Source: Bacteriovoracaceae bacterium | GTDB taxonomy: Bacteria > Bdellovibrionota > Bacteriovoracia > Bacteriovoracales > Bacteriovoracaceae | Length of the DNA stretch: 34,872 nucleotides | Direction of reading: 5' to 3' | NCBI GenBank assembly: GCA_947451425.1 | Contig: CANGAC010000010.1 | Coordinates: forward strand, 1-34,872 | In this document: positions 7,307 through 12,200 of the stretch, piece after piece | Position numbering within the stretch: position 1 is the stretch's first letter | How the letters are laid out: the number at the start of each line of letters is the position of its first letter | Made by a program: the position numbers and the translations under genes | Notes under the pieces: model-generated | Database searches by the model: none | Seen by the model: only the letters and a program-made list of their open reading frames with translations | Told to the model about the DNA's origin: nothing

Positions 7307-7393
7307 TCCTTCGGGCGCAATTGATCAGTTCAGGACGTTGTAATTGTGGTAAACTGGCTGTACAAAAGTCCCGTATTGCGGAGAAAAACTCTT

Positions 7394-7729
7394 ATGGAAC
7401 AATCACTTATCGAAATCACACCAAAGGCGCTGGAAGAGATCCAGGTCATTGCCCGTAATGAAAATCCAGATGGCAACAAAGGTTTGCGCCTGGCCGTTAC
7501 TGGCGGTGGATGTTCAGGTCTTTCCTATAAGATCGAATTCAGTGAACAGAAGCCCAAAGATAACATTCTCGATTTCAGTGGCGTAAAAGTTTTCGTGGAT
7601 CCTAAGTCACTCATCTATCTCAAGGGTATTGTGCTTGATTATAAAGATGGTCTTAATGGCAAAGGCTTCGTCTTTGATAATCCGAATGCGAAGAACACTT
7701 GCGGCTGCGGAGAATCTTTCTCCGTCTGA
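7394..7729 (+). CDS. Iron-sulfur cluster assembly accessory protein (IscA/ErpA family)
   Basis: LRLAVTGGGCSGLSYKIEF and C-terminal NTCGCGESFSV; A-type carrier cysteines. Confidence 0.92.
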   Translation: MEQSLIEITPKALEEIQVIARNENPDGNKGLRLAVTGGGCSGLSYKIEFSEQKPKDNILDFSGVKVFVDPKSLIYLKGIVLDYKDGLNGKGFVFDNPNAKNTCGCGESFSV

Positions 7730-7731
7730 AC

Positions 7732-9237
7732 ATGATTAATCATTATCGCTATTCCCGCGGACAGTTCACCATCACGTTTGTCGAGCTGCTCCTCAGGGGA
7801 TCTGATGTTGTCTCATTTCTCGATTCACAATCAACTTTGAAAATCAGTCTCCTTTCACCAGATCACTTCCATCTGGCAACTTTTCTTGATCCACAAGGAA
7901 AGGTGGAAACGTATGGATGGCTCCTTCAAAAGAGTGATCATTTTCTTTATCTCGTGCCGAAACTTTTAAAAGAAAAATCTCTCGCGCGCCTGAACCGCTT
8001 CCTCGTTTCAGAAGATGTAGAGATCGAAGACAATGGCCTGAAAAATTGGTCTTTTATTCTTGGCGAACAAGATCGAGGTCTGATTTTCGATGAACCTGCG
8101 ATGCTGGCAGAATTACCTTCCGAGCAGATTGAAATTATTCCAGCACCCGAGCGCGAACTTTGGCGAAAGGTCAACGGCTGGCCTTCTTTTGATGGATCGG
8201 ATTTTACGAATGAACTCGTAAATAACCTGAGACTTTTTGATCTCGCCGTTGTCATGAACAAGGGCTGCTATCCGGGACAGGAAACGGTCTCGAAGATTGC
8301 TACTCACCGAGGAGCTGCTTATTCCCCTGTCCTGATTGAAAGCGATTCAGCGATTGAACCAGGTATTCTGAATCTCGAAGGAAACCGCATCGGAACTGCT
8401 GTTGAATCTCTTTCCTGGGATGGGAAATACTATACCGTCACAAATCTTCTCCGGGACTTCCGCGTCGAAAGAATGAAACTCAACTTCGAGTCTAACGGCA
8501 AACCCCATCAAGGTATTGTTCGTTACTACCCACTTCTGCCAGGAAATAAAAAATCCAAGGCCCTCGAACTTTACGATGAGGCCCTTTCATTATTCCGGGA
8601 TAACAATCTCTCCGAAGCTGAATCACTGCTCAGGAAATCCCTGACACTTGATCCGACACTGGCCGATGCCTATGAGGCCCTTGGGGTCATGCTGGGAAGG
8701 CAGAATCGGTATTCTGAGGCGATCGAGATCATGGAACAGCTTGTACAAGTTGATCCCGATTCCCTGATGGCACACACCAATCTTTCGCTTTTTCTTATGA
8801 AAACGGGAAAGATTGAGGAAGCAGAAAACCACAAGTCTCTGGCCACCCTGAAGTCGTTCTCAAAATTCGGGAATGAGGCAAAAGAAAAAGAACTCGCTGA
8901 AAAAAAAGCCAAGGCCGATGCAGAAGAGTGGGCACGAAGAGAGAAGATGTTTCTCGAGGTTCTGGAAATTGATCCGGAGGATAGTCTCGCCAATTACGGA
9001 CTGGGGTCTCTCGCTGTTGAGCGGGGAGATTGGCAGAAAGCGCGGGATCATCTTGAAAGAGTCTTAAGTGAAGACCCTAAGTATTCAGTAGCGTATCTGG
9101 CCCTGGGAAAAGCTTATAAGGGCCTGGGGCTGGTTGATGATGCGAAAGAAACATTCCGTAAGGGGATTAAAGTCGCTGCCGGAAAAGGCGATCTCATGCC
9201 GGCCAATCAGATGCAAAGTGAGCTGGACCGGATTTAG
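7732..9237 (+). CDS. YgfZ/GcvT-like folate-binding protein fused to TPR domain
   Basis: KGCYPGQE signature at about 8260-8283; tandem TPRs from about 8556 onward. Confidence 0.85.
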   Translation: MINHYRYSRGQFTITFVELLLRGSDVVSFLDSQSTLKISLLSPDHFHLATFLDPQGKVETYGWLLQKSDHFLYLVPKLLKEKSLARLNRFLVSEDVEIEDNGLKNWSFILGEQDRGLIFDEPAMLAELPSEQIEIIPAPERELWRKVNGWPSFDGSDFTNELVNNLRLFDLAVVMNKGCYPGQETVSKIATHRGAAYSPVLIESDSAIEPGILNLEGNRIGTAVESLSWDGKYYTVTNLLRDFRVERMKLNFESNGKPHQGIVRYYPLLPGNKKSKALELYDEALSLFRDNNLSEAESLLRKSLTLDPTLADAYEALGVMLGRQNRYSEAIEIMEQLVQVDPDSLMAHTNLSLFLMKTGKIEEAENHKSLATLKSFSKFGNEAKEKELAEKKAKADAEEWARREKMFLEVLEIDPEDSLANYGLGSLAVERGDWQKARDHLERVLSEDPKYSVAYLALGKAYKGLGLVDDAKETFRKGIKVAAGKGDLMPANQMQSELDRI

Positions 9238-10469
9238 ATTTTTCTGAATTTCTTCTGAGCAGTTGAGAGCTCGCTCTTTAACTTCTGTAGCTCTTTTTTG
9301 TGCTTCTTCAATCGTCTTTCCCATAGCGGGATTTTAGTACGAAATTTCGCGAGTTCTTTCTGCTGATCTGCGATCAGCTTCCAGCCTTTATCGTTAATCA
9401 GCTTCTTCCCTCTTGCCCATTTAAGTTCCTGGAAACTGAAATCAAGCATCCGGAATTCTTCCACTGCTCTCCAGAGAATTTTTTCTTTCTCATCGTCAGA
9501 GAATTTATACCAGATGTTATCGAGATCGGACTTCGCCAGGTCACTGAAAAGCTTGAAGGCCCAAAAAAAAGTAAAGTACGCGTGATAGATTCCCCGAAGT
9601 GGTCTCTGTGATCTTCTCCAGGGACTGTAATAAATCATCTCTGAAGGCTCATCGATAAGCTTTTCGAGGTTCAGGAAATGGTTAAGGTAGTGATGGCCAT
9701 TTTCATGAAGGAGATCATCCAGGAGATCGAGAAAATCCCGGTCGTAGAGATTGATCATGGAAACAGAGGGGAAATTCTGATGAGAGTAACTGACAAATTC
9801 CTTGTCACGGATGGGGATAATCACGTCGGTAAATGCAATGAATCGTTCCCAGGAGCTTGGGGAATACTTTTTTACCAGTTTTAGAGCGAGCTCAATTCTT
9901 TGTGAGAAAATATTCATCTCTTTTAGAGAATGAGTCTTGAGATCAAGCTCCTTCCCTTCAAGGTGAAGAGTCGTTCCAAGCATGGGGGAAATTTTCCCAT
10001 TTCTCATTCTTTCACCGAGGACAGTCTGCACGCGGTAGGAAGAGGAACTGGCCTCAATTTTTTCTACATGCCGTTTCCCAAGAGTGACCAGATGTTTTTC
10101 AAGATGCTTTAAGGTGAACTGAGAGGCTGCGGAAACAGATTTTCCCTTGTTCAGTTGCTTCAGGAAAACATCGGCGAACTCAGAATGGTTCCAGGTCTCA
10201 AAAATTTGATCTTCGTCATGACTGAGAGATGTCTGGGAGCCTGCGGTTGGTTTAATGTTCTGGAGAAAAAAATAGGTCTCAAGTTGAGTAACAAAAAACC
10301 AATTGAAGTTTGTGTACGAGGCGAGAAGTTCATCATTCCCAAGAATCCAGGTTTTCAGGGGGCCCGGTGAAAAATGGCGAAGATTCGCCCGGATTTTTTT
10401 CCACTTGGTTTGGTAGCGTTGACGTGTTCTGGATTTAAGCCGACGAAATTGTCGTGGAGTGAAATTCAT
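9234..10469 (-). CDS. HExxH-motif protein, aKG-HExxH-type peptide beta-hydroxylase-like
   Basis: DDLLHENGHHYLNHF followed by YYSPWRRSQRPLRGIYHAYFTFFWAF; basic coiled-coil C-terminus. Confidence 0.6.
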   Translation of the reverse strand: MNFTPRQFRRLKSRTRQRYQTKWKKIRANLRHFSPGPLKTWILGNDELLASYTNFNWFFVTQLETYFFLQNIKPTAGSQTSLSHDEDQIFETWNHSEFADVFLKQLNKGKSVSAASQFTLKHLEKHLVTLGKRHVEKIEASSSSYRVQTVLGERMRNGKISPMLGTTLHLEGKELDLKTHSLKEMNIFSQRIELALKLVKKYSPSSWERFIAFTDVIIPIRDKEFVSYSHQNFPSVSMINLYDRDFLDLLDDLLHENGHHYLNHFLNLEKLIDEPSEMIYYSPWRRSQRPLRGIYHAYFTFFWAFKLFSDLAKSDLDNIWYKFSDDEKEKILWRAVEEFRMLDFSFQELKWARGKKLINDKGWKLIADQQKELAKFRTKIPLWERRLKKHKKELQKLKSELSTAQKKFRKI

Positions 10470-10475
10470 AAAAAG

Positions 10476-10552
10476 TGGCTGGGAAGGAGAGATTCGAACT
10501 CTCGACCAACAGATTAACAGTCTGCTGCGCTAACCAACTGCGCCACTTCCCA
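10476..10552 (-). tRNA. tRNA-Asn(GTT) with encoded CCA
   Basis: Reverse complement TGGGAAGTGGCGCAGTTGGTTAGCGCAGCAGACTGTTAATCTGTTGGTCGAGAGTTCGAATCTCTCCTTCCCAGCCA; anticodon loop CTGTTAA; 7-bp acceptor stem. Confidence 0.97.
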
Positions 10553-10698: not shown

Positions 10699-11175
10699 TT
10701 GGGTAATAAGCCATCATCTTATGTTTTACGCGCCCTCTGTATTTTAGGACCAGAAGAGATCCTAAAACTCGCCCATGTGCTTAATCGTGAGGAAGTGACC
10801 TTTAAGAAGGCATCTGGCGACGACGGGGTGATTTGGAAACAGGATCGCGCTCCCTCGCAGAAGAGAAAAGAGGCTTCCGCGCCAACAGAGGCCAAAGTTC
10901 TCCCCTTCAGCAGACCCTCAACTCATGTTCCAGAACCTAAGATTGAAACATCTTCAGAAAGCGATGAAGAACCCCAGATTCTCAGTTCGGATGTCATTCT
11001 TCTCCAAAGGGAAATCGCGCGTGAAACCGGAACGGGGGACAAGAAAGCTGCAGCTAGCCGCGGATATCAGAAGGCCACAGAGATGTATGTGGTGAAATCC
11101 CAGACTTTAGATGGGAAAGAAAAAATGCGTATCGCTTCGACTAACGGTGTTCTCGTCAATAAGAAGCAAGCCTAA
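10699..11175 (+). CDS. Hypothetical protein; 5' end uncertain
   Basis: 158-aa ORF with TTG start; helical N-terminus SSYVLRALCILGPEEILKLAHVL, low-complexity middle. Confidence 0.6.
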   Translation: MGNKPSSYVLRALCILGPEEILKLAHVLNREEVTFKKASGDDGVIWKQDRAPSQKRKEASAPTEAKVLPFSRPSTHVPEPKIETSSESDEEPQILSSDVILLQREIARETGTGDKKAAASRGYQKATEMYVVKSQTLDGKEKMRIASTNGVLVNKKQA

Positions 11176-12200
11176 GCAAACGGGATCGCCGTAATCTTCT
11201 GAGGCATCTTGATTCCCAGCTCTTTTACCACCATCGGATCCATCGAAACCTGGCCATCGCCATGAACCTGAAGTGAAGTCCTCAGGGCGAAGAAATCATA
11301 CTCAGGATGCTCGAGAGAAATCATCACGTCGCGTGCTTCTTTGGCATCGTAACTTTTATTTGTGATGAGAACCCCGGTGATTTTTTCTTTGATGGGCTTG
11401 ATTTCTTTCAGAGGACAACGGAAGTGGGGGCCACCATCGAACGGATCAACTTCGAAGGTATATTTGAATCCGATGCCTTCGAGCATTTTTTTAACGGGTT
11501 CAGTTTCCTTGCCGACTTTTCCAATGGCCTCGCGAGCTTCGAGAGGGAGCAGGGTCTGGTAAATATTTTCAGACGGAAACAGACTCAGAATAAACTCTTT
11601 GTTACTTCTACTGAGGATGTCGGCTTCCACGTAATTCATATTGAGAAACTTTCTGCCAATGGCTTCCCAGAGGGGAGAGTTTCCGTGCTTATCCAGCGGT
11701 GGCATGAGCTCTGAGTGAACCATCGGCTTGAAGCGTTCAGGGTTTCTCGCCATGTAGAGAAAACGCACAAACGAAAGCTGCTTTCCGAGTTTTTCTTTGT
11801 GCCCTCGGAATTCAGGGTTGAGAATGAGACCGCCGATTTCTGTCGGGCCATTAGTATCGAGTCCAAGCTTGAGCGTACCGTGAACAAATCCAGTATTGAT
11901 TGTTTGAGAGAATTTTGATTCCTGTCCGACACTCAGATAAAAATGCGGCTCATCTTCCGTCCCGTGTTGGGCATGAATCATCGAGACACCAAGGATTTCA
12001 TTCGTCGATTTGTCTTCCAGGACGAAGATGTAATAGTTCCGGAAAAAATCCGGGCTCGGATTATGAAAACTCTTCATGGAGCTTTTGATCTTGGCACTGA
12101 TCATGTCTTCGTCAGCCGGAAGATTAATAAAGACCATTATCGTACTTAGCTTAAAAAGATCTTTAAGGTCTTTTGGCTGGACCGATCTCAGGATAAACAT
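11172..12200 (-). CDS. astA: Arginine N-succinyltransferase
   Basis: MFILRSVQPKDLKDLFKLS...INLPADEDMI, GxSMIHAQHGTEDEPHFYLSVG, GGLILNPEFRGHKEKLGKQLSFVRFLYMA; AstA-like throughout. Confidence 0.85.
   Translation of the reverse strand: MFILRSVQPKDLKDLFKLSTIMVFINLPADEDMISAKIKSSMKSFHNPSPDFFRNYYIFVLEDKSTNEILGVSMIHAQHGTEDEPHFYLSVGQESKFSQTINTGFVHGTLKLGLDTNGPTEIGGLILNPEFRGHKEKLGKQLSFVRFLYMARNPERFKPMVHSELMPPLDKHGNSPLWEAIGRKFLNMNYVEADILSRSNKEFILSLFPSENIYQTLLPLEAREAIGKVGKETEPVKKMLEGIGFKYTFEVDPFDGGPHFRCPLKEIKPIKEKITGVLITNKSYDAKEARDVMISLEHPEYDFFALRTSLQVHGDGQVSMDPMVVKELGIKMPQKITAIPFA

Follow-up and report, generated by a model that had tools for sequence, protein, structure and literature searches.

The characterized members of the recently described aKG-HExxH oxygenase family that are covered by PMC12636437 and PMC13060819 are Fe(II)/2-oxoglutarate-dependent peptide hydroxylases and serve as RiPP enzymes. 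ChlH hydroxylates His and Asp residues of a cyclophane RiPP (Morishita et al. 2024, as cited in PMC12636437), PflC and PosC β-hydroxylate Gln/Asn, and PesO acts on Pro (PMC12636437, PMC13060819). PflC also hydrolyzes peptides when the leader is missing (PMC12636437). The JmjC protein RoxA (YcfD) makes β-hydroxyarginine on ribosomal protein uL16 (PMC4295552, PMC5862935), and it thereby carries out the same type of chemistry, β-hydroxylation, as the HExxH family (PMC4295552, PMC5862935; PMC12636437, PMC13060819). We analyzed a 34,872-nucleotide stretch of DNA from a Bacteriovoracaceae bacterium (the window) that encodes a 411-residue HExxH protein, here called Q. We consider it fairly likely that Q is a stand-alone, cytoplasmic Fe(II)/2-oxoglutarate hydroxylase with a ChlH-type HExxH fold that acts on an endogenous protein or peptide and does not belong to a RiPP cluster. 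The features of the locus are as follows.

9234..10469, minus strand: Q, an HExxH-type predicted peptide/protein hydroxylase of 411 amino acids (open reading frame, TIGR04267, orthologues, model)
9930..10469, minus strand: N-terminal part of Q, residues 1-180 (model secondary structure, orthologue alignment)
9693..9707, minus strand: HENGH (H255-H259), the HExxH metal-binding motif (invariant in 46 orthologues)
9582..9626, minus strand: SPWRRSQRPLRGIYH (residues 282-296), with the candidate third ligand His296 (invariant residues, alignment with ChlH)
9249..9497, minus strand: C-terminal helices of Q, residues 325-407, with invariant R334, E337 and E338 (alignment, model)
10476..10552, minus strand: tRNA-Asn(GTT), whose CCA end lies 6 nt before the Q ATG
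10699..11175, plus strand: P, a divergent orphan protein of 158 amino acids with the conserved tail GVLVNKKQA (synteny)
7699..9237, plus strand: YgfZ-TPR protein, a convergent neighbor conserved in position
7346..7729, plus strand: ErpA/IscA-type iron-sulfur carrier, a conserved neighbor
11172..12200, minus strand: AstA (arginine N-succinyltransferase) family protein, a conserved neighbor

The Q gene begins with ATG, and its stop codon overlaps the 3′ end of the convergent YgfZ gene by 4 bp. The earlier note had read this frame as an HEXXH-family protein with an SPWR/RPLRGxxH segment downstream of the HExxH motif and with YgfZ-TPR and tRNA-Asn as neighbors; its coordinates, motifs and neighbors are all correct, and the family membership is borne out by a profile search, by the fold comparison below and by the invariance of the motifs. 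TIGR04267, the NCBIfam model of aKG-HExxH peptide β-hydroxylases, matches Q with 65.5 bits (E = 5.9e-18) against a curated cut-off of 40 bits, the match covering residues 193-307 and positions 2-122 of the 177 in the profile rather than its full length. A Pfam search with Q gave no match and hence no JmjC (PF08007) domain. Six consecutive residues, H255, E256, N257, G258, H259 and H260, are identical in all 46 aligned orthologues, as are S282, P283, W284, R285, R289, R292, G293 and H296, with 22 residues separating H259 from S282; the HExxH and RPxRGxxH motifs, whose loss among orthologues the earlier note had named as evidence against its reading, are thus essentially invariant. R334, E337 and E338, nearer the C-terminus, are likewise invariant, and the motif conservation was seen again in a second set of 42 sequences. 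Invariance across 46 orthologues argues that these motifs did not arise by chance, and the assignment of Q to the aKG-HExxH peptide β-hydroxylase family is well supported. Residues 1-180 lie outside the profile match but are common to the orthologues. The long basic coiled-coil C-terminus described in the earlier note does not hold up: this region carries a net charge of +14 here, but beyond the window's own lineage most genera have values from -7 to +4, and the modeled structure consists of several helices in place of one long coiled coil. The basic character is therefore a local trait, and we dropped the tail as a clue to nucleic-acid or ribosome binding because its charge is not conserved.

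The AlphaFold2 model of Q is confident (pLDDT 93.5, pTM 0.88) and places helices followed by strands in residues 1-180, ahead of the HExxH domain. Sequence searches of the PDB with Q matched only ChlH (E = 1.7e-7) and the HExxH enzyme of entries 22nu/22ob (SjiH), and a profile built from 28 Q orthologues raised the ChlH match to E = 5.9e-12. The same two proteins came first when the model was searched with Foldseek (E = 2e-7 to 4e-7; SjiH at 3e-7), while aminopeptidases and other zincins followed at E = 0.03 or worse; a search of a viral fold library returned nothing at E below 0.001. Structure prediction, which the earlier note had suggested could expose a gluzincin fold, instead finds the best solved match in the ChlH oxygenase, with every protease ranking below it. 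The whole-chain superposition on ChlH is modest (TM 0.39-0.57), and the part that Q and ChlH have in common is therefore probably the HExxH core. The SPWRRSQRPLRGIYH segment aligns with SPWREDLRPPSGLLH of ChlH, His296 falling on a His in that protein, and SjiH has a Gln at this position. Both His296 and E337/E338, the candidates for a third metal ligand, are invariant among the 46 Q orthologues, and the model carries no metal.

Across most genera the genes follow the order AstA, P, tRNA-Asn, Q, YgfZ, ErpA, FHA protein, PduO and IcmF, with AstA often accompanied by an aminotransferase and an aldehyde dehydrogenase. Q shares no operon with a protein-coding neighbor, given that P is divergent and YgfZ convergent. 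Neither RiPP precursor genes nor RiPP enzyme genes were met beside Q, whose neighbors are housekeeping genes across the class; MNIO was not found in the window's own genome and shows no significant association with Q across the class genomes. This survey of orthologue context strengthens the stand-alone, non-RiPP reading of the earlier note, with Q emerging as a syntenic core gene of the whole class. P has no Pfam or NCBIfam match, but 113 of the 129 class genomes contain a member of its family, which is marked by the conserved C-terminal tail GVL[VI]NKKQ[AYF]. Both tRNA-Asn and P stay in place in genomes that lack Q. Because P is retained, tail included, in genomes without Q, it is not an obligatory precursor, and we abandoned it as the leading candidate for an obligatory partner or substrate.

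Only 6 nt (CCA CTTTTT ATG) separate the CCA end of tRNA-Asn from the Q start codon. Spacings of 5-17 nt recur in many genomes, including those of loci L054, L056-L058, L060-L063, L070 and L072, and others have 50-70 nt or more. No ribosome-binding site is visible before Q (window positions 10470-10552). The tRNA-Asn gene is the only strong match in its own draft genome, where there is no second full-length one. The short distance to the tRNA end suggests that the Q message may be released by tRNA 3′ processing; judged from sequence, it may be a near-leaderless mRNA derived from a joint tRNA-mRNA transcript.

Shorter HExxH family members of 261-290 amino acids occur in the class in other operons. 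A 261-residue member (L114:6628-9316, also L120) lies beside an exported protein with SESRVEIL-type repeats, an epimerase-like protein and a histidine kinase, and this locus is possibly a RiPP-like system. Other short members (L115-L119, for example L116:3114-9158) share an operon with a sigma54-type response regulator, a small exported protein, an oligopeptide-binding-like protein and a histidine kinase.

To describe the distribution of Q we used a Bacteriovoracia-type group (the NCBI class, phylum Bdellovibrionota), assigned by inference from the names of named relatives (Bacteriovorax, Halobacteriovorax and Bacteriovoracaceae MAGs). The Q profile matches in 92 of the 129 class genomes: 86 of these matches were taken as Q (some copies being cut by contig ends or carrying an internal stop in the draft), three are weak matches to other proteins (G033, G081, G125), and three are copies without the motifs, in genus g41. 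A contig edge in one further genome, G062, carries the start of Q, for a total of 86-87 of 129. A search of 340 genomes of the phylum gave matches outside the group in only three, all weak and partial. The presence of Q requires four or five changes on trees of the locus markers, and the best reading is therefore that the ancestor of the group had the gene and that it was lost several times. The Q tree has 19 of 38 splits in common with the marker tree, with a distance correlation of 0.74, which fits mainly vertical inheritance with some transfer possible; in genus g53, Q resides at a different locus. Q is thus a class-wide core gene of Bacteriovoracia, though its repeated losses indicate that the function is dispensable.

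The three g41 orthologues occupy the same locus (L087:6289-7725, L088:5969-7447, L089:3690-5190). Each has QSSAL or QSNAL in place of HENGH, and SPWR, R289, R292, G293 and H296 are gone. The gene is nevertheless open at about 480 amino acids in two genomes and is interrupted in the third at a run of unresolved bases. Between any two copies, 38-48% of the aligned residues differ (dN 0.26-0.42); because synonymous sites are mostly saturated, we relied on dN and the open frames in place of dN/dS. Structure prediction still recovers the fold (pLDDT 86.1, from an alignment that included active orthologues). These observations suggest that in g41 selection maintains Q, now a pseudoenzyme, for a role other than catalysis.

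RoxA/YcfD offers a comparison with a stand-alone enzyme of similar chemistry. RoxA orthologues were checked for identity against solved YcfD structures, and a clear gap in score sets them apart from other JmjC proteins. They are present in 5 of the 87 genomes with Q and in 15 of the 37 without it (Fisher p = 6e-6, the genomes not being independent; five genomes with missing or cut Q loci were left out as of unknown state). Phylogenetic correction leaves about three independent pairs, 1.9 of them in the expected direction, which is not significant, and the anticorrelation is therefore a lead only. The orthologues (L126-L147) are patchy in the class and lie mostly in genomes without Q. No RoxA turned up in the rest of the sampled phylum, and its confinement to the class does not support the idea that it is an ancestral phylum trait displaced by Q. 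The RMGKGKG target loop of uL16 is present in 12 of 15 sequences (the pattern used missed the other three); its core is the same in all Q/RoxA states, so we set it aside as a discriminator.

Because Q is encoded by a core gene that stands alone and has descended mostly vertically, it probably hydroxylates one of the cell's own proteins, and its most likely reaction would be hydroxylation of a β-carbon in an endogenous Bacteriovoracia protein or peptide. The HExxH histidines would coordinate iron, probably with His296 as a further ligand, the SPWR/RPxRG segment would give the pocket for 2-oxoglutarate and substrate its shape, and the N-terminal part would recognize the substrate. Several observations weigh against this reading: the partial profile match, the modest superposition on ChlH, the peptidase activity of PflC, which makes a protease side activity of Q possible, the repeated losses and the pseudoenzyme. 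Q might also be a zincin-type metalloprotease, a reading to which the HExxH motif, the zincins trailing ChlH in the fold search and the peptide cleavage by PflC without its leader lend some weight. However, the TIGR04267 match is specific, the SPWR/RPxRGxxH residues are invariant, and ChlH and SjiH lead the zincins by five orders of magnitude in E, which together make a protease quite improbable. The pseudoenzyme bears on a different proposal, that Q is mainly a structural or regulatory binder for which catalysis is secondary: in g41 the gene was kept at its locus with intact frames and a predicted fold after its motifs were lost. We give this very little credence as a general account, the motifs being invariant in all other orthologues and the pseudoenzyme belonging to one lineage.

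The remaining alternatives concern the substrate. Q could tailor in trans a RiPP precursor whose gene lies elsewhere in the genome, as might be expected from the characterized family members, which are RiPP enzymes, and from the shorter members in the class that adjoin exported small or repeat proteins. We regard this as unlikely, since a RiPP pathway would not usually be conserved across a whole class, keep a fixed place among housekeeping genes and give a largely congruent tree, and MNIO, the RiPP enzyme class that was searched genome-wide, is absent from the window's own genome and is not associated with Q. A special case of the favored reading makes Q a ribosomal oxygenase that would do the work of RoxA/YcfD with an unrelated fold, hydroxylating the β-carbon of the uL16 arginine (Arg81) close to the peptidyl transferase center, or modifying another ribosomal residue. 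The shared β-hydroxylation chemistry, the presence of the RMGKGKG loop and the distribution of RoxA, which MNIO does not mirror, are consistent with this, yet the contrast comes down to some three independent pairs, five genomes carry both Q and RoxA while many lineages carry neither, RoxA was seen in the sampled phylum only within this class, and the core of the uL16 loop does not vary with either enzyme. We therefore hold a ribosomal target to be very unlikely. If it were correct, a second, unrelated enzyme fold would serve the same kind of ribosome modification. The broader reading, in which Q hydroxylates an endogenous protein or peptide, would mean that a class-wide, non-RiPP member of the family applies the same fold to ordinary cell proteins, and it would give a group that includes predatory bacteria a further protein modification. 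The several losses and the pseudoenzyme offer a route to the substrate of Q, which a comparison of related strains could reveal.

Among proteins of known structure, ChlH, the HExxH domain of ChlBH (PDB 8s5f), has the HExxH motif and the SPWR..RP..G..H segment of Q and is its best match in sequence and fold, but it is fused to a radical SAM enzyme, whereas Q stands alone in a housekeeping locus. SjiH (PDB 22ob/22nu) shares HExxH and the PWR..RP..G segment but differs in its Gln at the place of His296, and the name of its PDB chain is that of a radical SAM core domain-containing protein. PflC, PosC, PesO and BpmH, set beside Q here by description, are stand-alone family proteins as Q is, yet their genes adjoin precursor peptides and other RiPP enzymes. 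RoxA/YcfD, a stand-alone protein β-hydroxylase whose distribution is partly complementary to that of Q, is a possible functional analogue, although its JmjC double-stranded β-helix is unrelated to the fold of Q.
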